Shown here piece after piece: positions 1,527-54,055 of a stretch of 64,000 bases of DNA; positions within the stretch are counted from its first letter, which is position 1; each line of letters opens with the position of its first letter. The notes under the pieces were generated by a model, which worked only from the letters and a program-made list of their open reading frames with translations, was not told where the DNA came from and ran no database searches. The stretch comes from Tachypleus tridentatus. Lineage: Eukaryota; Arthropoda; Merostomata; Xiphosura; Limulidae. The stretch lies in assembly GCF_004210375.1 (NCBI RefSeq), contig NW_027467782.1, forward strand, positions 20,625,276-20,689,275. The letters are read 5' to 3'. The translations under genes were made by a program, and so were the position numbers.

Positions 1527-2188
1527 CTAATTTACAGAAAACAAATTTTAAATTTAAGACACTCAAATAGGCTACAACAATATTTAGTTCAGATGTAACT
1601 TTAGGCTTAGTCATACAAAACAACACTGATGTGAAATATACAATGTTTCATTTTAATAATATAAAACTGATTTCTTTTAGAGCTAGCTCTATCCTCTCAT
1701 AATTTATTTGGAGTATTATGTTACAGTGCGAAAGGGTAAAAGTTTTGTTGAAAAAATGAATTTTTGTATTGCTGTTAGACCTTCGTATTAACCCTTGTTT
1801 CCACTAGTTCATATTAGCTTAAGTGACTGCTTGAATTGGTAAAGAAAATTGCTAAAAAATATTTAAAAACAGTGAATATAAACAGGATTTAAAATTATTA
1901 CATGTATCAAATGAAACCTTTAGGTTTAAAATCTTCAAAAAATTGGTTTCTTTAAAACTTGAGTTATTTTATTGTATTCCAGTGATAGAAAACTGTGAAG
2001 CTGTGTATATTATTTTTCAAATTAAGGACAACAATATAGTTTTGTAAAATAGTATAGGAAAATTTTAAGACAGTGTAAGAGGACAAAAACAGAAAATAAA
2101 ATGTATCACAACAAATATTTTTCACATTTCAAAGCTGTAAGTTCATATAAATATCACATACACAAAACACCTTCTTTGCAGATGCTAC

Positions 2189-2293
2189 CTGCGGAAAGAA
2201 ATTCTGAAGTTTCAAACCACTTCATCCAATGGCTTTCTTTTTTAAACAATTCAATGTAACAAACCACACAATGGTTGCACAGATTTGATGTAC
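2189..2293 (-). CDS. Exon A, copy 1, of the same unrecognised gene
   Basis: A 105-nt minus-strand interval with acceptor TACCCAG and donor CCGCAG-GTAGCA. One frame is open, encoding a Cys- and aromatic-rich stretch including YIELFKKESHWMKWFETSEF. It ends with one base (G) that joins exon B to make Gly, so the phases fit. The copy at 25924-26028 is nearly identical in protein (S/A and A/T changes near the end). Function unknown. Confidence 0.55.
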
Positions 2294-2436
2294 CTGGGTA
2301 TTACATAGTTAAATACAACTTTGAGGTAATCTAGCAATCTGTATTTCAGTTTGGCCTAATAAGGTGTGCAGAGCCAAAGGATTTTACAATGCAAGTTCAC
2401 TAATGCAGGCCACTCGCATTTTTGATTTTCAAATTT

Positions 2437-2514
2437 TGTATAGATACAGATGTACTAATCAAGTGTTTTCCAATATGTATGGATACAGATGTACTAGTAA
2501 AGTATTTTCCAAAC
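2437..2514. repeat. 39-bp tandem repeat, 2 units (copy 1)
   Basis: Two units of TGTATAGATACAGATGTACT followed by A/G-TCAAGTATTTTCCAATA with 39-bp period (starts at 2437 and 2476). The duplicate locus at 26172-26288 has three units. Confidence 0.85.
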
Positions 2515-3183
2515 TTTTGTCATCACTCTTTATGCACGAAACATGATTTCATGTGCCACCATTTTTTTTAGATAAGGGAAAGTTGTGTGATTAGATATAA
2601 TTCACAGATACATATTAAAACATTATATGTATTGTAGTAATTAATTATTATTTTCTTTAATAAAAAAATATCTAAACACTTAACTATGCATTATTGTGCC
2701 TCATCACAGATAATTTATGCCTCCCTGAGATGAGTGTGGAGCGCCCCATGCTACGGGAAATGTTGTACTAGCTGATATGGATGCTATGAGAATGAAACAG
2801 ACAGTATAGTCTGTTCTCCACAGGGTTAGTTTTAATGACTCTTTAGTGCTGCAGGGCAAAACAAGTAATGGATTTCATGGTAAGTTAGTTTATCTTGCAT
2901 CCTTTATTTACAGAAATGTTAAGGTGTTTTGGGCACTTATTCTAAACCACGAAATACTCATGTTAACCTTTCATACTTACTCAGTTTTTTAGCGGTTTAC
3001 GACCCTTTTGTATTATCTGATTTACTTCTGAATACAAAAGCTAATTATGAGTGAGAAAAAACAATTACGTACCAGCTACACTAGGTTCTGTCAACCACAC
3101 CAGGTCTGGTGGTGAAACCTAAGGTACTCCCCCCCCACTTTAGTACTTACAACCTGCAAACTAGACAAGAAACTAAATAATAT

Positions 3184-4117
3184 TTTTCTAATTATATTTA
3201 CTGATTATCATATTGCACAACATATATTTTTATTTTGGTCATTATGCCATAATTAATGCACACAATGAAAATTTTAATTTAGGTTTTAGAAAAATGCAGC
3301 ACTGACTGCACAATTTTTATAAACTATCATTAGCTCCAGAAAAAGAAAAAAAGCAACATACATGCTTAATAACTTTATACTAGATTCTTTAGTCAAGAAC
3401 TGTAACTGAGCCATAAGTAAACTAAAACCAAATATCCAGCAACCGCTAATATCAGAGCTTCACCGAGTTAAAATAATCCATGTCACTTAGTGGATAAGAG
3501 AGTATTCATTGCTTAATTAACTATTTATATAATTTTTACGTCATCATTTTACATGAATACTGACCTTTGGACACAGAAAGCTACATCATAGAAATATTCT
3601 CAACTTATCATATTCCTTTCTTGGAATTAGTCTTGCTCTATTTGGTCCTTTAACAAGGTATTTTATTTATCATAAAAATATGATCTCCTTTCACTTTAAT
3701 AAAGGTTTCATTTATTTATCACACTGACCTACTATGATACAAAATAATACTGTTTGCATGAGTTAGAGAAAATGTGAAGAATAATTTTTTTTTTCATTAA
3801 ACCAGGGATTTGGTTCCCAAGATATGACCCACCCGAGTAATCAGATCATTTTCTGCGATCATGTTCATATGAAGGAGAAGATCATTTTACTGATGTAATC
3901 ATGTTAGGTTCAGAAGAGTTCTTGTACATAAAGATATGTTTCTGTTTTACTGTGTTCAGTTTTGCGACTTGAAAACTGCCACCTAAAAAGCAATGTAAGT
4001 GAAGCATGGTGGGTAATGTTTCAGTTATTTGACTTTTTTGGCCTCAATATTTGAAACGTATTTAAGTGCTGATTTTAAGTAAAAGTTACGCACTACGTCT
4101 TTAATTCCAAATTCATT
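3184..4117. other. Unique AT-rich sequence, nothing recognised
   Basis: No open frame with splice sites, no repeat family and no RNA gene that I can support. It begins exactly where similarity to the second duplicate stops. Confidence 0.5.
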
Positions 4118-4392
4118 GGCTCGGCATGGCCAAGCGCGTTAAGGCGTGCGACTCCTAATCCGAGGGTCGCGGGTTCGCATCCCCGTCGTGCCAAATATGC
4201 TCGCCCTTTCAACCGTGGGGGCGTTATAATTTTCGGTCAATCCCACTATTCGTTGGTAAAAAAGTAGCCCAAGAGTTGGCGGTGGGTGGTGATGACTAGC
4301 TGCTTTTCCTCTAGTCTTACACTGCTAAATTAGGGACGGCGAGTACAGATAGCCCTCGAGTAGTTTTGTGCGAAATTCAAAAACAAACAAAC
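4118..4392 (+). mobile_element. SINE family 1 (tRNA-headed), near full length
   Basis: Starts with a tRNA-like head (GGCATGGCCAAGCGCGTTAA as A box region, GGGTTCGCATCCCC as B box), followed by the family body (GCGTTATAA, CCACTATTCGTTGGTAAAA, GAGTTGGCGGTGGGTGGTGA, CTAAATTAGGGACGGC) and the tail ACAGATAGCCCTCGAGTAG with an A-rich end. About 20 copies or fragments lie in this window. The head is transcribed by RNA polymerase III in such elements; this copy is not a tRNA gene. Confidence 0.95.
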
Positions 4393-6290
4393 ATTCGTAG
4401 TTCTAAGGTAATTTAGAAAAATGAGAGTTAGTTCCAATAACTATAATTTTTCATATTTAAAACTGCTAACTCTACAATTTTGTTATCTGTAAAACTTCAG
4501 TATTTTAGAAAGTTGCAAATTATTCATTATATTAGGGACTGTAAAGTTTCATACATTGTCAAGACAAAACACCACTTAAAAAACTAGTTTGTGAGGAGTA
4601 TTGTAATGAAATGGCCGTCCACTATTTAACCCAGACACTCATCTATTTGTTCATATGTCGAAACCTTGGGTCACGCAATTTCTTTATCAATATCACGGAA
4701 TCTTCAGACCTTGAACTTCGTATTAAAGAAAGTTTACTCGTAACAAAAGAGTGCTCTGTTCTTAACGCCGTATACAGCTTCTCAGACTTAAAACTATTTA
4801 ATAAAGTGCTAAATATTTCACGTCTTTTAATTTCCCACTTTAGCACCGTATGTGTGTATATCACGGAGCCAAAATGCAGCTAGTGGATTATGATATTCAA
4901 AAGGACTTTAAAAAAGGCCCCAATTTTGCTATACTTGATTTAAAAGTTAATTGACACTTTTCGAGAACTCGCCGAAAGTTTAATTGCACTCCTTTAGTTA
5001 AACTTGAATCATGATCTAATCTTTCTTAAGTTACATCACAACGTGTATTGGTTGATTGGGTTTACTGTAACTTTACTTTCAGGAATGTTAAATTATTATA
5101 AATTAAACATTTATTAAGGTATTTTAATTCATGTTGCTGGAGTGTATTTGCAAAAACAAGTTCTTTAGTCTTTTAACCCCCTACCTTCTGGTGAGAAACG
5201 TACGGTTTTATTAATAGAATATCATATTAGCATAATCTATTTTCTTTCTGTCTACCATGTCAGTAAAGTAGTGTTTGACAATACTGTATCATTAGTCAAC
5301 ATATATTATTTTTCCAATTTTCTTCCAGATGATGGAGTAAGTATGTTCCAGAATTCTTAAAACTAAATAAAAATATATTATGTTTTATTAATGGTTATCT
5401 TTATTATTAAACTTTGTTTTCCCACCACGAGTCCATTAGCCAACTTAAGTAAGAGACTGTATGTACTTGAGAAATGTGTTGGAGATTCTCTGAAAGACAA
5501 AAAATATGAAATCCATTATGTTCGCACACCATAAATGATCCCAGCTTTGGTTATCATTACTTAGAACACCCGTGTATCTACACTTTTTTTTTCTTAAGTA
5601 TGCATGCTATCAATGACGTATTTAGGTTAGGGCTAGGGGACTTAGTCCCAGGGCCCATGGTTTTAATGGGGGCTCATTGATAAATTTATTATATGTAAAA
5701 TTACATGGGATGTAAGGCCCACAAAAATTATCATTTCCTGGGCCACCAACCTTAAATCCGCTACCTTATGGTATCAGTGTCTTCAGATTCTTCCGTAGTC
5801 TGACTGTTGTTTCAAATAAAGGAACATCTTTTCTGTTGTATTTTTATCTATAACACTCAAATAATATTTCTATTTCCAACATTCCAAAACATTGTGGTTT
5901 CAACGTTATCCTTTTGTCTTTATGGTATGAACCTACAACTAACCAATCCCTTGAGACGACGAAGCGTATAACTTCATAAACATAGATAATAAACAGTGTC
6001 AAATTTACTCTTAGAAGGGGTGAGTGATTAATTACCGAGCATAGCAATATAATCAATATATAGATCAGTTTCAATTTGTTTCATAAAACGAATATAGCAT
6101 CAATGTCTCCAGCGATATCCTTTGGCACATTCATGTACTTACTTTTTTTGTGTAATCAATTAATATATAGTTGTATTCTTAATGGTTGTGAGCAGTTAGA
6201 CCATTTCCAATGTTTGCTGACGTGTGTTTCATACCTCATGTAAATACTTCATGACATGTTTATAAATGTCAGAAAAACACGTGTTCAAAA
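4393..6290. other. Mostly unrecognised AT-rich DNA with one possible old MITE
   Basis: No supported gene. About 5614-5762 looks like an old MITE: it begins near GTATTTAGGTTAGGGC and ends with a roughly inverted GGGCCACCAACCTTAAATCC, but no clean target-site duplication is visible. The two overlapping frames at 4611-4883 and 4643-4864 are on opposite strands and look like chance. Confidence 0.35.
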
Positions 6291-11685: not shown

Positions 11686-12698
11686 CTAGTTTTTTTTATC
11701 CACCTTGTGTTGAACATCTTTTAACTCTGGGATCGGTGTTATCAAACCTTTCCAATCGCAATACGACAAGACGTTTCTTGCTGCGAGTTTAGCCATATTT
11801 TGTCTAACTGTTACTTCTGCAGTTCCTATGTGGGGTAGAAGGACCAAGTTTGGTAGAGTGGTGAGTCTGTGATCTTTTGGTATCGGTTCAGGAACCATGA
11901 CATCCAAACCAGCAGCACGGATCTTTCCATGTTTTAAGGCATCGTATAAATCATCATGTTGGACGACTTTTCCTCTGCTCGTGTTGATAAATATAGCAGT
12001 AGATTTCATCAGGTTAAACTGCTTAGCAGTAAACAGTTCTGTTGTTTTGTCTGTCAGATTGCACGTACAAAGAACGAAGTCCGACTCCCTCAGAAGATCT
12101 TCAAATTCTACATAGCGGGCTCCCATACTTTCTACAGCATCAACAGGTTTGTGTATATCATGGTATACAACTTTATTGACCTTAAATGATAAAATTCTTT
12201 CGGCAACAGCCTAACCGATTTTTCCTATGCCCACATGCCCACAGTGGCATTTTAAAGTCCTACACCACACATCCATTAAGGGTCCCACATATATACCCAC
12301 TCTCCATTTTTTTATAGCGTTTGAAGCTTCAAACAGTCGTCTCCCAGTTATCAGCATAAGAGCAACTGTTAATTCGGCAACGCTATCAGTTGGTATCCCT
12401 GGTGTATTACTTACTAGGATGTCGCGTTTCCTGCATTCATTAATATCAATATGGTCGTACCCGACAGAATTGGTCGCGATTACTTTCAGTTGCTGTCCAG
12501 CTGCATCAAGTACTTCACTGTCGATTATATCTGTTGTTGAACAGTAAATAATATCCTTTCCCTGAATACCCTTAATAAGCGCCTCACGTGGTATTGTTTT
12601 GGGTTCTTTATAAAATTCAACATCACATACCTTCCTCAACATGTCGTTCACTTCCTGCGATATGTCAGGCCTAGTAACAAAACTTTGTATTTTGTCAT
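11686..12698 (-). pseudogene. GRHPR-like: Glyoxylate/hydroxypyruvate reductase retropseudogene
   Basis: The translated minus strand follows the D-2-hydroxyacid dehydrogenase family. It shows the N-terminal substrate domain (VIATNSVGYDHID), then SNTPGIPTDSVAELTVAL, a degraded NAD-binding glycine motif (VGIGKIG), FINTSRGKVV, AAGLDV, PEP and the catalytic HIG region (LLPHIGTAEV), with the stop at 11686-11688. The intact enzyme would reduce glyoxylate and hydroxypyruvate in the cytosol or peroxisome. There are no introns over about 1 kb, unlike the multi-exon animal gene, which suggests a processed copy. Lesions: one base lost in a T run soon after the ATG at 12698-12696, a frameshift before the glycine motif that is corrected within it, and an in-frame TAG at 12211-12213 where Gln is usual. 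No poly-A tract or target duplication was found. It is not expected to make enzyme. Confidence 0.88.
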
Positions 12699-13064
12699 GG
12701 TGACTACGTTTTATCGTTAGCAGTGCTACACTATCCGTGTAATGCTCAGTGAAACTCAGTCACTCGCATAGCTCAAGATTCATTATATAACCGATATTGG
12801 CGGTAAGCGCCATCTCTGGATAAACACGTGCAAAAGGTTTGTTTGTGATTATTTGAGTTAACCCAAAAGTGTTGAATTTATAGAGCCATAATTTTCCTTT
12901 TGTTGATAATAGTAACATAAAACTTAAGAATATGTTATTTAGCCAATAGGTCGCTGCATTTTTATTTTTCTTCATATCAGTGTTTCACATTCTAATGGTA
13001 ACTGTTGAAGAATTGAAATATATATTTTCTTATTGAAAACATACTTTAATATCAAGCCACACAT

Positions 13065-32523: not shown

Positions 32524-32706
32524 GTTTGTTTGTTTTGGATTTCGCACAAATCTACTCGCGGGCTGTCTGTGCTAGCCGTCCGTAATTTAGCAGTGTAAGA
32601 CTCGAGGGAAGGCAGCTAGTCATCACCATGCACCGCCAACTCTTGGGCTACTCTTTTACCAACGAATAGTGGGATTGACTGCACATTATAACGCCCCCAC
32701 GGCTGA
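32524..32706 (-). mobile_element. SINE family 1, 5'-truncated, antisense
   Basis: Tail complement GTTTGTTTGTTTTGGATTTC through the body to CCCCCACGGCTGAA, where the tRNA head is missing and Penelope-like coding sequence begins. Confidence 0.9.
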
Positions 32707-33019
32707 AGTTTATTTTGGGTTTAAGTTGTTGTATAAGTAAGGTTTCTTTAATTTTCCGTTTGTTTGCTTCTTTATTTAACATTTGAGTGTTTTCTATGGT
32801 TATGTTGTGTTTATTTGACTTGCAGTGTTCGAAAACGTGTGAAGGTGACTTTTTATGTTCTTTGAATCTGGTTTCCATTTTTCTACTTGTTTCTCCAATA
32901 TAGAAGTCGTGGCAGTTATCAAATTGTATTTTATAAATAATGTTGGTGTGGTGTTTGTCAGTGTAAAGGAACGCTTTTATACCTATATTAATATAGATAT
33001 AATTATATTCAAACATCGT
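32707..33019 (-). pseudogene. Penelope-like element, GIY-YIG endonuclease segment
   Basis: Minus-strand translation contains NIIYKIQFDNCHDFYIGETS then RKMETRFKEHKKSPSH. These match the GIY-YIG nuclease signature (IYKI, spacing, DFYIG, then the conserved Arg of the following helix and EH). HNITIENTQMLNKEANKRKI and KETLLIQQLKPKIN complete the domain. Penelope-like elements place this nuclease after the reverse transcriptase to nick target DNA. The RT is absent here. The sequence is cut on the left by the truncated SINE at 32706. Confidence 0.85.
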
Positions 33020-33305
33020 TGTTTTTTTGTTTTGGAATTTCGCACAAAGCTACTCGAGGGTTATCTGTGCTAGCCGTCCCTAATTTAGCAGTGTAAGACT
33101 AGAGGGAAGGCAGCTAGTCATCACCACCCACCGCCAACTCTTGGGCTACTCTTTTACCAACGAATAGTGGGATTGACCGTCACATTATACACCCCCACGG
33201 CTGGGAGAGCGAGCATGTTTAGCGCAACGCGGGCGCGAACCCGCGACCCTCGGATTACGAGTCGCACGCCTTACGCGCTTGGCCATGCCAGGCCTTCAAA
33301 CATCG
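33009..33305 (-). mobile_element. SINE family 1 inserted in Penelope-like sequence
   Basis: Full-length antisense copy flanked by the direct repeat TTCAAACATCG at 33009-33019 and 33295-33305. Removing it and one repeat joins the sequence left and right, which shows what the Penelope-like region looked like before insertion. Confidence 0.96.
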
Positions 33306-38241: not shown

Positions 38242-38741
38242 NNNNNNNNNNNNNNNNNNNNNNNNNNNNNNNNNNNNNNNNNNNNNNNNNNNNNNNNNNN
38301 NNNNNNNNNNNNNNNNNNNNNNNNNNNNNNNNNNNNNNNNNNNNNNNNNNNNNNNNNNNNNNNNNNNNNNNNNNNNNNNNNNNNNNNNNNNNNNNNNNNN
38401 NNNNNNNNNNNNNNNNNNNNNNNNNNNNNNNNNNNNNNNNNNNNNNNNNNNNNNNNNNNNNNNNNNNNNNNNNNNNNNNNNNNNNNNNNNNNNNNNNNNN
38501 NNNNNNNNNNNNNNNNNNNNNNNNNNNNNNNNNNNNNNNNNNNNNNNNNNNNNNNNNNNNNNNNNNNNNNNNNNNNNNNNNNNNNNNNNNNNNNNNNNNN
38601 NNNNNNNNNNNNNNNNNNNNNNNNNNNNNNNNNNNNNNNNNNNNNNNNNNNNNNNNNNNNNNNNNNNNNNNNNNNNNNNNNNNNNNNNNNNNNNNNNNNN
38701 NNNNNNNNNNNNNNNNNNNNNNNNNNNNNNNNNNNNNNNNN
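38242..38741. other. Assembly gap of exactly 500 N
   Basis: 500 ambiguous bases, a round figure that suggests a placeholder length. Frames translated across it are meaningless. Confidence 0.99.
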
Positions 38742-46198: not shown

Positions 46199-46668
46199 TA
46201 ACAGCGTATGAATCAAGATTTACATGTATTTATACTAAAGTTATACACAAATATTTAGAAGTAAGTACTTTTTCGAGATTTGCGACTGAAATATAAATCC
46301 CTTTCACGTATCAGCCCTCAAATATATTCTCCCATCATGTTTTCGTTATACACGCTCCCAAGTCACAAAAGTAAAGTTTGAAGAGAATAGGCCTTTTCCA
46401 TTTACTTTTGGCATAAGCAATTAGAAAATAACATTTTGTGCCCAGAAACAAGAAAAGGTAAAATTTTCTTACACAGTGTAATCTTACGTATATACAGACA
46501 ATTATTATTTTTAATCAATACACATGGTGAGTGAAATATCAAACGAAAAGGTTATGGCTGAAATAAATTTAAAATCAAGATGGACGATTTCGATTTAGGT
46601 GTTATTTCTGTTAAATTAGTGTCGTTTAATAAATGAAAATACGGTCTTTAAAAAAACCTTTAATTTAC

Positions 46669-46969
46669 CTCTAACATCATGTTTGTAATCACCTTCACGA
46701 TTTTTGCATGTGTAAATTCCCGCGTCTTCAAATTGGATGTCGGTTAGCACTAATTTGCCACCGTATTTTATTTGCGTTTTCTCACTATTAATAACTTGTT
46801 CATTGAGATTTGAGAACCAAATTACTGATTCTTCTCTCGCTCTTTTATAAGCTCGGTTTGAACAAATTAATGTGAGAGTAGAACCACGTTCAGTTTCATA
46901 GACGAATCTAAAACCTGAAACAAGCAGGAAATTAGCGAAAATATAAAATAATTGAGTGTAATTAGCCAT
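46669..46969 (-). CDS. Receptor-like gene, exon 1: signal peptide and Ig domain
   Basis: The frame starts at ATG 46969 with a typical signal sequence (MANYTQLFYIFANFLLVSG). An immunoglobulin-type domain follows: GSTLTLICSNRA with the first Cys, SVIWFSNL with the core Trp, KLVLTDIQFEDAGIYTCKN with the Leu, Asp and Y-x-C signature, and then donor AGAG-GTAAAT. It is 301 nt, ending one base into a codon, which exon 2 completes. An acceptor-like TGTTTCAG at 46911 could mean that the signal and Ig parts are separate exons. With exons 2-5 the product would be a single-pass surface protein with one Ig and one ephrin-receptor-like module. No named family is recognised. Confidence 0.8.
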
Positions 46970-47565
46970 TGAATTCTCTCTGCACTGTACGCTTTGTAAA
47001 TCACTTTCTGTATTGTTTCTAAGTGAAATATCAGTGTTACTATGCGCACAAAGTATTCTTGTTTGAATGACGTCATGAACTGAAGTAACATTGTTCGGTG
47101 GAAAAACGTTTTACTAACAATAATGATTGCAAAGTTTATTGCTTTCTGTCGTGTGAAAGACCTTAAACTGAGAAATTATAATCATGTTTATGTTTTGCAT
47201 AATTTAGATTTAATAAACAATAACAACACTTGCCTGAGATTTCAACTTGAAATTTAGGTAAAAGCAAATAAAATGTATACGAAGTTTTGCTTTGCAATTT
47301 CTTCTGACAATACAAGTCTTAGTCGGTATTTATGATATCAACCATAATAAGACTGCTAACAGATGTCTCATGATACATGTAAATTATAATTGAGTAGTTA
47401 TAAATGTATAAACACTGTAACAATATTTAAATTGAAAAATCAGTTAAAGAATATTCACATATATAACTTGTGTGACAAATACTGCATTCCACGGTGTTAT
47501 ATAGGGATTAATGACTACAATTAGCTGTATCAAATATTTTGTTCTTCAAAACTAATATGATTTCA
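46970..47565. other. Upstream flank of the receptor-like gene
   Basis: No TATA box or repeat recognised. The minus-strand frame at 46867-47091 overlaps exon 1 in another frame and has no support. Confidence 0.35.
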
Positions 47566-47609
47566 ATAGTTTGTTTTTCGAATGTCGCACAAAGCTATTC
47601 GAAGGCTAT
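47566..47609 (-). mobile_element. SINE family 1, left part, split by a DNA transposon
   Basis: TTGTTTTTCGAATGTCGCAC and AAAGCTATTCGAAGGCTAT are the antisense tail. The rest of the same SINE resumes at 49800. Confidence 0.88.
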
Positions 47610-47700
47610 CGAGGTTTGCGTGTGACGTCACTCTTGACCTAGTTACTGCTGACCGTGTTTATATTCCAACACAAGCGTGATTCATTGTCAAAAGTGTGTG

Positions 47701-48768
47701 ATGGTACACTCGTGTTGTGCATTTAACTGTTCAAATCGACATTGACAGGCGGAAAATGTGTCATTCTACAGATTTCCTATGGATCCCGACCGAAGAAGAC
47801 GATGGATTGCAGCTGTCAATATGAAAAACTGGACACCCACAGAGCACACCAGACTTTGTAGTAAACATTTTGTGTCAGGTATCTATAATTCATCTATAGC
47901 CAGGCTGAATAAATTGAAACTTACACGCATGATATATGTACAGCAGAGCACACTGCAGCACCAGTCAAAGAAATGTTTTTTGCACACTTTTCTTTTACTT
48001 TTAAATTACTGAATAGTAAATTTACTGAAGGAACAATATTATTCATGATGAATAGGTTATATAGCCATTTGTACATTAAGACAAAATGTTAATATCTCTT
48101 AAAGGACCAATTTAAGTGATTCATCAGAAAACTACAACTGGCACAAAATTAAATAGTGTGCAAATAATTAATTTGTTCGCTGTACATTCAGTTGTTAAAC
48201 AATGTTCAGCATATTCAGTTATATATATATATATATTTAGTTAAAAGTGTACAGTGTATGTGTTATATATATAAATATTATCTGATCATGCTTGTAGGTC
48301 TATATCTTAACAAAATTATTGTACTCTGTTTCAGGGACGACGAGTGATGATCCCCTATCACCTGACTATGTACCTTCCATATTTCATTTTACACGTTCTC
48401 CCCTGAAGAGAAGGAAAGCTGCTGAATTGTGTAAATATGAAAACAGGAAAGAAGTGACCAAAAGGAGAAAAGAACAACAAAAGAGACATGAAGCTACTGC
48501 TGGGCTGCTTGAACTTGCTTTCATAGAATCTGCTGGCACTGCTGCCACTGATAGCAGCTGTACTGATTCTGCTGATGAACTTGAAGCTACATGTGATAAT
48601 TTTGACTTGTGTACATCACAATATACAACTGAGACATGTATGCAGACGGAAATATCATTCATAGACTTAGTTAGACTTGAATCTGAATGGCAACGTGGGA
48701 GCAGACTTCACCTAGTCCAGCCTTGCAGGTGCAGTGGGAAGATATTATCTCTCCATTCCTGCAACTAG
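47701..48768 (+). pseudogene. THAP-domain protein, two exons, in-frame stop
   Basis: Exon 1 (47701-47878) begins MVHSCCAFNCSNRH, then an in-frame TGA (47743-47745), then NVSFYRFPMDPDRRRRWIAA and TRLCSKHFVSG. This gives the C2CH zinc ligands (Cys, Cys, then C-x-x-H), the Trp and the FP motif of a DNA-binding THAP domain. The donor CAG-GTATCT and the acceptor CTCTGTTTCAG at 48334 join in phase to exon 2 (48335-48768): TTSDDPLSPDYVPSIFHF, a coiled Lys/Arg/Glu-rich segment, then ETCMQTEISFIDL, before the stop. The SDDP-SPDYVPS-F extension is typical of THAP proteins. No transposase core follows. The TGA suggests decay. Confidence 0.85.
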
Positions 48769-49289
48769 CAACCCATAGCTTTAGTGGTGGTTCATTTAGC
48801 CGCTGAGAGTGGCACACCTGTAAAATAACAAAGAAAATATTAAGTTGTGTATATATAAGCTTTTAAAGACAACTGGGTATCAGGTTGGGATACATGTGTC
48901 ACTCAAATAATAAAATAATATAAAAAATAACAGAACAGCTAAATATTAAATTATTTTTACAGAAACCTAACATGGCTATTGACCAGCTTTAACGGTCTAT
49001 GTCTACTTGTACTATTTATTATCTATATATTGATTCCTTACCAAAAATTAATCATAAATCAAAAATTAAGTTTTGAAACAGCCTAGACAATAAGGTATCT
49101 TAATATCATTATACAAACATGTATAGAAGTGCTCTAGGCTAGAGCTTTGACAACAGTCAGTACACATGTAGTACAATAATATTGAACCATTTATTAAAAT
49201 GGGGGCTCTACTTTACTTAAGTATCTAGTCTTCGTCTAAAATGTAGTTAAATCTATCATACAGAGTACATGATACATGTATGTAATACA
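48769..49289. other. Interior of the transposon without recognisable coding
   Basis: AT-rich. This is where the transposase core and nuclease body would be expected; they are absent. Confidence 0.4.
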
Positions 49290-49666
49290 ACATGATGTAC
49301 AAACTTTTGCTGTAATGATGACTTTATCCGACGTTGCCCTGGTTATCTGCACATTCTGTACAAATCCTACCACAAAGTACTTGTACGCATCAAGGCTTTG
49401 TAACCTTTTAGACTTTCATTTGTATAGGTGGAAGTCCTGTTTATCAAATATATATAAATGTCACCATATGTAATATATGGCAGATCTACTCCGGAAACAG
49501 TCTGACTCTGAACAACGTTGTCTTGGCTGGATATTACTGGCGTAAATACACGTGGCGGGAGCATATACGGGTCTCCTACACCCAGTTCCTTCACGTTTTC
49601 CTCATACCTGGCCTTATCAGCACCTGTCAGGTGTGCTACAAGTGATGAAAAGCCAGCAGCAGCCAT
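49290..49666 (-). pseudogene. N-terminal part of YqaJ/SWIM-type transposon protein
   Basis: From ATG 49666 the minus strand reads MAAAGFSSLVAHLTGADKAR, YEENVKELGVGDPYMLP, PYITYGDIYIYLINRTSTYT and NESLKGYKA. One base is missing in an AAA(A) run near 49393. After it the related text continues in the next frame as SLDAYKYFVVGFVQNVQITR and KVIITAKV, then ends. This start is one I associate with large invertebrate proteins carrying a SWIM zinc finger and a YqaJ-type nuclease, common in transposons. Only about 120 of several hundred residues remain. Confidence 0.6.
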
Positions 49667-49799
49667 TTACATGTGAATAGTACTGAATACAGCAGTTGTT
49701 AACTCGTTCAGTCATGCGGGATACTTGCCACCCAATATGGCGATATGTTTACAAACCTCGTTGTGGTCACGTGACACTAATAGGTTCACGCAAAACCTC

Positions 49800-50033
49800 T
49801 ATTTGTGCTAGTCGTCCCTAATTTAGCAGTGTAAGACTAGAGGGAAGGCAGCTAGTCATCACCACCCACCGCCAACTCTTGGGCTACTCTTTTACCAACG
49901 AATAGTGCGATTGACCATCACATTATAACGCCCCACGGCTGGGAGGCGAGTATGTTTAGTGCGACCGGGATTCGAACCCGCGACCCTCGGATTACGAGTC
50001 GAACACCTTATCACACTTGGCCATACCAGGCCA
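49800..50033 (-). mobile_element. SINE family 1, right part of the split copy
   Basis: TATTTGTGCTAGTCGTCCCT onwards through the body to the head complement CTTGGCCATACCAGGCC. With 47566-47609 it makes one complete SINE. Confidence 0.95.
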
Positions 50034-50183
50034 AGATTTCAATAGATCTTCCGTCCTGAAAACAGTAATATGTTCATTACGCTGTTCATGGTTGCCAGGT
50101 AAAATACTGTCACAGTTTTGTTGTGCTGTTGCAATAAAGATAATTCCCTGAATCAAATAAGCCTAAGATTTATTATGTGTGTG

Positions 50184-51117: not shown

Positions 51118-52465
51118 ATGTGTGATGATACTGAGCCAAAGAAACCTAACTCGCACGAGACGAAGGAATAAATGAATCATCTGTAAGACTGTTAAATAAA
51201 AGAACCAGTAAAACAGTATTGAATGGCTACCAACTGTTTTGCCTCGAAAACAATCGTCAAGAAAAGGAGCTCTAATGGTGAATATGGAATGTCTGCTATC
51301 AATATGGATAGATGATTGTAATCAGAAGCGAATTCCTTTAAGTCAAATGGAAATTCAAACGAAAGCTTCGAGTTTTTTAAACGCCTTTAAAGATTGGTTT
51401 GTTTTGGAATTTCGCACAAAGCTACTCGAGGGCTATCTGTGCTAGCCGTCCCTAATTTATCAGTGTAAGACTAGAGGGAAAACAACTAGTCATCACCACC
51501 CACCGCCAACTCTTGGGCTACTCTTTACCAACGAATAGTGGGATTGGCCGTCACATTATAACGACCCCACGGCTGGGAGGGCGAGCATGTTTGGCGCGAC
51601 CGGGATGCGAACCCGCGACCCTCAGATTACGAGTCGCACGCCTTAACACGCTTGGCCATGCCGGGCCGCCTTTAAAGAAACCGTTGGTGAATGGGGAACT
51701 AAAGAAATATTTTTGGCAAGCCGTGATTGGTTCTTTCGTTTTAAAAAACACTCTGGTTTTCATAATGTTCGTATTGCAGGCGAAAGTTCAAATTAATAAA
51801 AAGTTCGTTACGAAGATAACCAAATATTAATGTTGATAAAAGGGGTTTATTTTGGGAAAAAAAGTGCCTTCAAGAACTTTTCTATCAGAAAATGAAAAAA
51901 ACTCGGCCACGTTAGAAGGGGTAAAAGATCGTTTGACACTTGTTTTGCGGAAATGGATCTGGCGATTTTAAATTAAAACCTGTGCTTGTGTATCGTGCGG
52001 AAACACCCCGAACACTTATCAGTTGTGCAAAGAAGACTCTTCCAGTTGTTTGGCGATCAAATAAAAAAAGCATGGGTCCCAAAACCTTTGTTTGAAGACT
52101 GGTTAAAAAAGCTATTTTTGTCCTGCAGTTGAACATTACTGCAAAAGAAAACAACTTGGACTTTAAAGTCATCCAACAGGACTTTGTGACTTTAATGGAA
52201 ATGTCAAAATTCATCTTTTCCACCCAATACAACATCTCTACTGCAATTAATGAATCACGGTGTCATTGTAACGTTTGAAGCTTATTATTTGAAGCGAACT
52301 TTCTCTCAAGCAATAAAGACTACAATTACAGAAGCTGCACTATCTTCGACTAAATTCTGGAAAAATTACATCATCAGAAGTGCTATCGAGAATATCAACG
52401 AAGCGAGAGTAACATGAGAGCAATATGGAAGCACGTTCTGCCTGATTGTACAAGCTTTAAAAATT
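51118..52465 (+). pseudogene. Tigger/pogo (TIGD-like) transposase relic
   Basis: In order: DDTEPKKPNSHETKE from the ATG at 51118, SSVRLLNKRTSKT, then (second helix-turn-helix) ECLLSIWIDDCNQKRIPLSQ, interrupted by a SINE. After it come WFFRFKKHSGFHNVRIAGES, PSRTFLSENEKNSATLEGVK, and DDE-region traces (DRLTLVLRKW, EDWLKKLFLSCS in changing frames). AYYLKRTFSQAIKTTITEA and KFWKNYIIRSAIENINEA close it. The order and spacing follow the Tigger/jerky transposase, which cuts and pastes at TA. Many stops and frameshifts and a deletion in the first DNA-binding region rule out function. Confidence 0.85.
51382..51677 (-). mobile_element. SINE family 1 inserted in the Tigger relic
   Basis: A full antisense SINE flanked by CGCCTTTAAAG at 51382-51392 and 51667-51677. 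The coding text of the Tigger relic resumes directly behind the second repeat. Confidence 0.96.
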
Positions 52466-54055
52466 TTCCACTGGCTGGTTGAGGCTGAAAAATATGTATA
52501 GAGCAAATACATTGTAGAGAAAAGTTAATTGCCACTTGACAGCAGTAGAAAGAACTTCGGTCTACCAGATTTAATGAATGGGCTGCACAAGGCACATATA
52601 TGGCAAACTTATTTTCTTCTAAAATCTTTTGCTGCATATCCTTACAACGCCCAGACATGTTAGCAGCATTGTGATAAGACTGACCCCTATATTTTGTAAA
52701 ATTAAGTTTGCAAAGTTCACGTAAGTACTGCAATACCTGGTTTGCCATTTCATCAGTCATTTGACTTTTTGGTTCCAAAAAGGTTAAAAAGCATTCAATA
52801 GGCTGCTCATTTTTTAAGTATCGAGTTCAACTCTTATCTGATCTATATGTGATAGATCTGGCGTCGAGTCAACTGACAAGCTAAAATAACAAGAAGAATT
52901 TACTTCATCAACAACAAATGTGTAGACCTTCTGAACCATTGGTTCAATGAGTTCTTCATTGGCGGTTTTGGACAAGTATGAAGAATTTCCTTTTCCAAAA
53001 TTTCCATATTTATAAATATGCCCTGCTAAACTGGATCAAACTGACTTATGAGCTAATGTAGCCCTAAAAAATTCCCATTCTGCAGTGAACCAAATTTCAT
53101 CTGTTCTGTGAAAAGCCAGGCTACGTTCAGCTAACGTACAAATAACAACTATTGCATGCTCCAAGACATGTTCCCAGTAATCGCACTCTTCTTTTAATTT
53201 CTTTTTCCAACTCTTGTTGCAAGCCTAAACCTTGTCTGTAAGTTAAGTATGTTAGCTAGAGTCTCGGTGAGTAGTGCTTCTTTAATGATGATCAATTACA
53301 ATAGTATTTCGCCAGTCACTGAACCCTTCTCTTTCAACAAAACACGAGGCAAATTTAGGGACAAAGAGTCGACAGTGAATACAACAACCATTCTCTCTTG
53401 TATTACTCACCATTGGCTTTTACCCCAAAGAAAAGTTTTTGCAAACAGTATTTCATTAGTTTGCTACTATTGAAAGTCCAGCAAGATTTAACAAATGACC
53501 CATTGTGGTGTTAACAGTCAGTGGGTCCACAAGCAATCGAATAAGCCACATCAGCAGCAGAGAAATCGAGCCACAACCCTGGATCTTTTGCTTTAGTTTC
53601 TTCATCTTTTTTAGACTGAAGCATTTTACCATAGTTCAGCAATTTTCATTTTCAGAAATTATTTCAACTTCAAACTGTCTTGTGGAGAAACTTGCATCAA
53701 CATTAACACTAGATTTATCTGGAGAATTTACAAGCAAAGTAAGATCAGTTGTGAAAGTTGTTGCAGTTGAGCAAGCCTGTGACACCTCAACGTCATCATT
53801 ATGTTCTGACCTTCAAGTGGACAAAGTGGTACTTGTAGATGTGGAGCTTGGTTCAACTTTAATCATGTCAGAGTCAGATACAGTACAAGTGACTTCTCAT
53901 GGCAGAGATGAGTTTTGATTTGGAAGATCTTGTTGTGTAAGTTCAGTGAACAAATTAGTCTGCTATCTAGACTTGGCCACTAAATCCAAAGCCTTTTGTT
54001 GGTTCTTTTCTGCCAGTTTTTTCTTTTGTGCACCACTTAAATGAACTTGTTTCAT
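52415..54055 (-). pseudogene. hAT transposase relic (DUF4371/ZMYM-type)
   Basis: Minus strand from ATG 54055: MKQVHLSGAQKKKLAEKN (the usual start KxLSGAQKRK), a Ser/Thr-rich linker, and, after scrambled frames, AGHIYKYGNFGKGNSSYLSK. Then come YFSLSVDSTPDLSHIDQIRV with the first catalytic Asp region, LTFLEPKSQMTDEMANQVL, KYRGQSYHNAANMSGR (second Asp region changed) and IYVPCAAHSLNLV. A trace of SASTSQWKIF follows at the point where the Tigger relic begins. Truncated before the C-terminal dimerisation domain and full of stops. Confidence 0.88.

Follow-up and report, generated by a model that had tools for sequence, protein, structure and literature searches.

The 64,000-nt stretch of Tachypleus tridentatus DNA analyzed here (hereafter the window; G000:C19:20625276-20689275) contains a 2,191-bp block that we consider, at a probability of about 94%, to be a non-autonomous, internally deleted member of a horseshoe crab ISL2EU family of DNA transposons, which inserted a single time into an older SINE and was then copied together with its host segment. 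The element (CGAGG...CCTCT) occupies positions 47610-49800 on the plus strand, as defined by ends common to other insertions and by empty sites. The first-pass annotation of this DNA had described a block of ~2.2 kb with inverted ends, and these were located by comparison with other copies as a left terminal inverted repeat CGAGGTTTGCGTG at 47610-47622 (plus strand) and a right one, CACGCAAAACCTCT, at 49787-49800 (minus strand). Its wider interval, 47566-50033, holds for the composite of SINE and element but not for the element alone. The left end reads AGAGGTTTTGCGTG in most other copies as opposed to CGAGGTTTGCGTG in the window copy, and the consensus of the inverted ends is (C/A)GAGGTTT(T)GCGTG. 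A search of the 2.17-Gb assembly (205 contigs) for further copies sharing both ends, as the annotation had proposed, was successful: the whole 2,468-bp stretch of SINE plus element is found at 16 places with 95-100% identity, window included, and 15 distinct insertions across the genome have the same ends, some of them bearing base changes. The arrangement is therefore not a product of chance. Since the genome searches scored the best candidates only, all copy numbers are lower bounds. In keeping with a horseshoe crab host, coagulin (PF02035), a protein known only from horseshoe crabs, matches this genome 19 times, always above the cut-off, and has no match in 14 control genomes.

Comparison of the window with fetched loci by BLAST revealed four copies (L011, L012, L013, and L015) whose matches to the two element halves are separated by ~2.8 kb. 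Together with L054, these full-length elements measure 4,993-5,019 bp and have the same ends as the window copy. On one strand they carry a THAP exon followed by another exon, which contains the HTH_Tnp_4 and DDE_Tnp_4 domains, while the opposite strand encodes, read from the right end, three exons: N-terminal, SWIM-like, and YqaJ. Splicing would join the exons of each gene. Pfam matches in L054 are strong for THAP (E=5.6e-16), HTH_Tnp_4 (1.3e-17), DDE_Tnp_4 (3.9e-51), and YqaJ (1.4e-17), and the THAP domain was also identified in L013 and the HTH, DDE, and YqaJ (5.2e-20) domains in L011. The anticipated full-length copies thus exist: they share the ends and encode a THAP-DDE transposase and, converging on it, a YqaJ nuclease. 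No match at E<=0.1 was obtained in Pfam for the N-terminal exon of the second gene or in the PDB for the transposase frame. None of the copies examined has every exon open: L011, L012, L013, and L015 contain stops or frame breaks, and L054 does not have the second gene's usual start in frame. Queries with the transposase and YqaJ sequences gave at least 117 matches (115 of 231 candidates scored), many of them partial or with stops, and at least 61 matches (104 of 112 candidates scored), respectively. More distant transposase relatives with 34-54% identity, e.g., at C2:127797501, C5:9606856, and C10:129191244, suggest by their sequences that other ISL2EU-like families may reside in the same genome. 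The flanks of L012 equal those of L011, indicating that this locus was duplicated on C13; at L011:6013-6390 (minus strand) the element ends inside a frame that resembles a cuticle protein by eye.

The stretch missing from the window copy corresponds to L011 positions 2142-4914, which include the HTH (2312-2464), DDE (2555-3045), PHD (3632-3730), and YqaJ (3956-4426) regions, while the SWIM-like region (4899-4967) spans the right edge. The window copy has accordingly lost ~2.8 kb with the HTH, DDE, YqaJ, and PHD parts, in agreement with the earlier statement that the catalytic parts are gone. The deletion junction lies at 48689-48695, where the four full-length copies contain 2,773-2,790 bp, and its two sides have no more than a few bases in common. 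Exon 1 of the transposase gene remains at 47701-47880 (plus strand), as judged by Pfam and translation, and its frame after the stop at codon 15 matches the THAP domain with E=1.8e-11. The claim of a THAP gene is thus upheld for the domain and corrected for this TGA, which was seen only in the window copy and L003 among 11 translated segment copies (window included); the THAP exon of L029 has a different stop, and L036 yielded no translation. It is followed by the start of exon 2 at 48335-48689 (plus strand; splice site set by eye), which ends before the HTH and DDE domains. The second gene starts near the opposite end, as had been noted, with MAAAGFSS... at 49666 on the minus strand. Its first exon extends over 49367-49666 (minus strand), and its frame leaves that of other copies near the exon end. 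A SWIM-like zinc-binding remnant, CTCKAGLGEVCSH, assigned by frame to 48693-48862 within 48671-48862 (minus strand), ends before YqaJ; Pfam SWIM reached only E=0.067, below the cut-off, in L011 and was unlisted for L054 and the window frame. The description of a YqaJ/SWIM-type gene therefore stands for the gene start and the SWIM-like remnant. No part of the YqaJ domain is left within the window, because the domain falls in the missing stretch.

The target site duplication was established by cross-copy comparison as AT, at 47608-47609 on the left, where empty sites also define it, and at 49801-49802 on the right. Our duplication table comprises 17 rows representing 15 insertions, with common flanks in L011/L012 and in L022/L023; the 22 known element-bearing segment copies (20 with the deletion junction plus L036 and L037) are counted in it as one insertion, and L016 (5' end not found) and L027 (5' part only) are excluded. 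AT is present on both sides in 12 of the 15 distinct insertions, window included, and is lacking on one side in three: TT/AT in L022/L023, GT/AT in L024, and AT/AG in L026. The base context of the target is mostly T-AT-A or T-AT-T. A TAT on each side had been pointed out previously; these letters are present in the window, but a 3-bp TAT duplication was rejected, because the left flanks of L020 and L021 read AAT instead of the TAT that it would require.

ISL2EU elements of PHIS (PIF/Harbinger-ISL2EU-Spy) are characterized, in the part of PMC4482050 available to us, by an AT duplication, a THAP/HTH/DDE transposase plus a YqaJ gene, and a mean autonomous length of ~4,840 bp. The horseshoe crab family resembles them in its two genes, AT duplication, inverted ends, length, and animal host. 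A transposase with THAP, HTH, and DDE domains is found in the full-length relatives, of which the window copy retains THAP only; the YqaJ second gene is present in L054 and L011 and deleted from the window copy; and the AT duplication agrees with the empty sites. The same part of that source gives ends usually starting with GG, stated as usual and not mandatory, whereas the ends here read AGAGG and, in the window, CGAGG. It further speculates, from conserved flanking bases, on an A-AT-T target that is said to be confirmed by empty sites; here, in contrast, T precedes and A or T follows the AT in most insertions. The A-AT-T target is a preference, and the group criterion is the AT duplication. 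Further differences are the horseshoe crab host and the second protein, whose ING-like PHD finger and SWIM-like motif are unmentioned in the available part of PMC4482050. Teleost ISL2EU elements, as outlined in the accessible part of PMC9179366, likewise have two genes, one for a YqaJ exonuclease and one for a DDE transposase that contains HTH or THAP; they differ in host, and the likeness is drawn from their described gene content.

The first-pass assignment to the ISL2EU type is thus borne out by full-length relatives with THAP-DDE and YqaJ genes and by the AT duplication. THAP domains are known from several transposon groups, and PIF/Harbinger transposases have, according to PMC4482050, similar DDE domains, both of which would also suit an element of the PIF/Harbinger, Kolobok, or P superfamily. 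However, the second gene is YqaJ and not Myb/SANT and the duplication is AT and not TWA, which does not fit PIF/Harbinger. Kolobok elements duplicate TTAA and P elements 8 bp; neither duplication was seen among the 15 insertions of the table, which speaks against both, and we regard membership in any of these superfamilies as highly improbable. No ISL2EU element of horseshoe crabs was found among the papers searched. DNA elements are the dominant repeats in two horseshoe crab genomes and SINEs make up a small part, according to the portion of PMC7815833 at hand.

The ISL2EU element splits a tRNA-derived SINE, recognized by a tRNA-like head and an 11-bp target site duplication. The piece left of the element, the end away from the tRNA head, was identified by sequence comparison at 47570-47609 (minus strand), and the piece with the tRNA head lies on the right at 49801-50034 (minus strand). 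The 11-bp duplication GATTTCAATAG is repeated beside the SINE at 47559-47569 and 50035-50045. The head matches the Rfam tRNA model at 49957-50017 on the minus strand with 29.8 bits (E=0.0016; gathering score 29), and no tRNA gene was called anywhere in the window by ARAGORN. The window contains this SINE at many other positions, with up to 17 alignments of the right-hand piece in a self-comparison.

The composite is located inside a host segment present in many copies, of which the window holds positions 38742-64000 and which continues beyond the window end. A 25.3-kb part matches C19:27527861-27553151 with 99.3% identity, and the alignment continues at ~99% to the equivalent of window position 71584; the segment is therefore more than 30 kb long. 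Left of the SINE it contains a reading frame with an Ig domain (46616-47110, minus strand; Pfam Ig_3 E=1.3e-7). At least 40 segment copies, 89-100% identical over a probe from the left flank of the SINE (best 40 of 260 candidates), are distributed over nine contigs (C19, C1, C9, C13, C7, C8, C6, C5, and C2), 13 of them on C19 (69.8 Mb). This dispersal, the head-to-head or tail-to-tail orientation of some copies, and the fact that the ends of the segment were not found could be explained if the host segment itself were a giant mobile element carrying the composite. Against this, the copies at C19:27.5, C1:41.39, and C9:124.73 Mb keep aligning left of the composite with falling identity, and no common sharp end appeared in the three copies compared; the content, judged by eye with few frames put through Pfam, resembles old repeat remnants and gene-like frames. 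We therefore consider a giant mobile element unlikely, and the segment was most likely spread by segmental duplication of a gene-bearing region. Break points that differ between copies were not borne out, the break on C1 being an assembly gap. Pfam returned nothing at E<=0.1 for window 52398-52826 and 32651-33049 (minus strand) or for L031:2063-2542 (minus strand).

Two further observations concern this side of the window. A gap of 500 N occupies 38242-38741. The duplicated segment resumes exactly at its right edge, while the sequence on its left finds nothing but SINE-like matches in the copy at C19:27.5 Mb, and the join may thus be unsafe. Assembly error could also inflate the copy number of the host segment. 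At 11686-12759 (minus strand) two adjoining frames are separated by a stop. One of them (12214-12759) matches 2-Hacid_dh with E=4.2e-25, and the other, by eye, seems to continue it; together they are perhaps a processed pseudogene.

Removal of the block in silico restores a continuous SINE, as claimed earlier, and the joined site reads GGCTATTTGTGCTAG. With a 0.9-kb probe from the left SINE flank (46600-47500), we obtained 40 matches (best 40 of 260 candidates scored), of which 18 were already known to be filled. Among the other 22, 18 were fetched with the SINE site; the remaining four (L062-L065 on C6) are labelled NOSINE, since the probe match stops short of the SINE. Fifteen of the 18 fetched paralogues contain the SINE without the element, two (L036 and L037) contain a 5' fragment in which the left end of the element is followed by diverging sequence, and in one (L052) the SINE is absent together with neighbouring DNA. 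L044, scored as empty, contains an empty segment and, after it, part of a filled one. The 15 bases of the restored site are identical in six of the empty paralogues and differ by 1-2 substitutions in nine. Empty SINE sites, which had been expected at orthologous loci, therefore do exist at paralogous ones, and the proposed nesting of the element in an older SINE is corroborated. In L028 (G000:C7:44400-49300), near the contig start, a second SINE lies inside the element, giving a SINE in ISL2EU in a SINE, which indicates activity of related SINEs both earlier and later than the ISL2EU insertion.

A 271-bp probe spanning the internal deletion (best 40 of 96 candidates scored) matched in full length at 19 places and, at a 20th on C7, in two pieces with a later SINE inside the element; each of the other 20 matches is confined to one side of the junction. 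Among these candidates the exact deletion thus occurs at 20 places, each beside the SINE, and nowhere else. Eighteen of the 20 copies have the Ig flank; the match of the two others has its left limit within the element and includes the right-hand SINE part. In a flank tree of all 40 places, the 20 rows that bear the element (L036, L037, and 18 of the junction copies) fall on one side of a single branch, whose support is good but not starred (82/97; 84% of 200 bootstrap trees). Filled and empty states require one change on this tree when the four NOSINE rows and L052 are excluded, a number as low as which was reached in none of 500 shuffles. Identity to the window over the 901-bp flank is 95.1-100% for the 20 filled segments versus 89.4-94.4% for the 15 empty ones. 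A footprint-free departure of the element would restore the same sequence, and the empty SINEs could then be products of precise excision; given the greater divergence of the empty segments from the window and the single change on the tree, such an origin is very unlikely, and we take them as pre-insertion sites.

The SINE is abundant, and another deletion form of the family did move, as L024 (C3:74.26 Mb) and L026 (C12:109.99 Mb) have one internal deletion in common and different flanks; this form seems to have moved without a transposase of its own. The composites might by analogy be independent insertions of the same derivative at the same SINE position. This was rejected, because the non-SINE flanks are shared over ~5 kb in seven copies (L002-L008; 97-bp gap in L004) and over more than 30 kb in one copy, group together on the tree, and the derivative was not found elsewhere among the best 40 of 96 candidates, so that independent insertion is scarcely credible. 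A single event on the tree and a junction found, among the candidates scored, only beside the SINE indicate instead that the window-type copy multiplied with its surroundings, and since the composite lies within a multi-copy host segment, the copies with this deletion do not look like separate transposition events.

Several other internal deletions occur among copies elsewhere in the genome. Internally deleted DNA transposons such as P or Ac derivatives keep their ends and lose the middle, and the horseshoe crab family is similar in this respect and in having several deletions in one family. Unlike them, the window derivative multiplied together with a host segment. In the sequence of events that we propose, the transposase would bind the element ends and mediate cut-and-paste transposition into an AT target. 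One element, which then or soon after lacked ~2.8 kb of its middle, presumably through faulty gap repair, would have inserted once at an AT in an older SINE in one copy of the host segment. Repeated copying of this segment, most likely through segmental duplication, would then have spread it, and the dead element with it, over several chromosomes.

The least ordinary feature of the element family is a fusion between its YqaJ nuclease and an ING-like PHD finger. In L054:3317-4552 (minus strand), one open frame encodes the YqaJ nuclease and a C-terminal ING-like PHD finger, whose best match is an ING-family PHD chain (E=5.4e-6). The YqaJ part resembles phage exonucleases (3syy, E=1.8e-6; lambda exonuclease, 0.012). 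Pfam PHD remains below the cut-off in the relatives; in L011, YqaJ and PHD likewise share an open frame, the PHD part being recognized by a weaker Pfam match. The tyrosine and tryptophan of ING fingers form the H3K4me3 cage. Classical H3K4me3 reading by this PHD finger is unsupported, since the aligned residues are L and H. Literature pairing YqaJ with a PHD finger comprised, by title, a fish transcriptome, and that on YqaJ, SWIM, and transposons included none on ISL2EU by title, both weak signs of novelty. The accessory YqaJ gene is called a gene of unknown role in the available part of PMC4482050. With a SWIM-like motif upstream of the fusion, the accessory protein might tentatively be viewed, on the basis of its sequence, as a chromatin-binding nuclease partner.

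Taken together, our results place ISL2EU in a horseshoe crab and document a nested insertion from within one genome, through its full-length relatives, its empty sites, and the relative order of events read from paralogous segments. They also serve as a warning that counting the copies of a non-autonomous element may count copies of a host segment rather than jumps. The PHD-YqaJ fusion offers a handle on the role of the ISL2EU accessory gene, and if the idea of a chromatin-binding partner is true, the protein could direct insertion, or the processing of ends, to chromatin of a particular kind.
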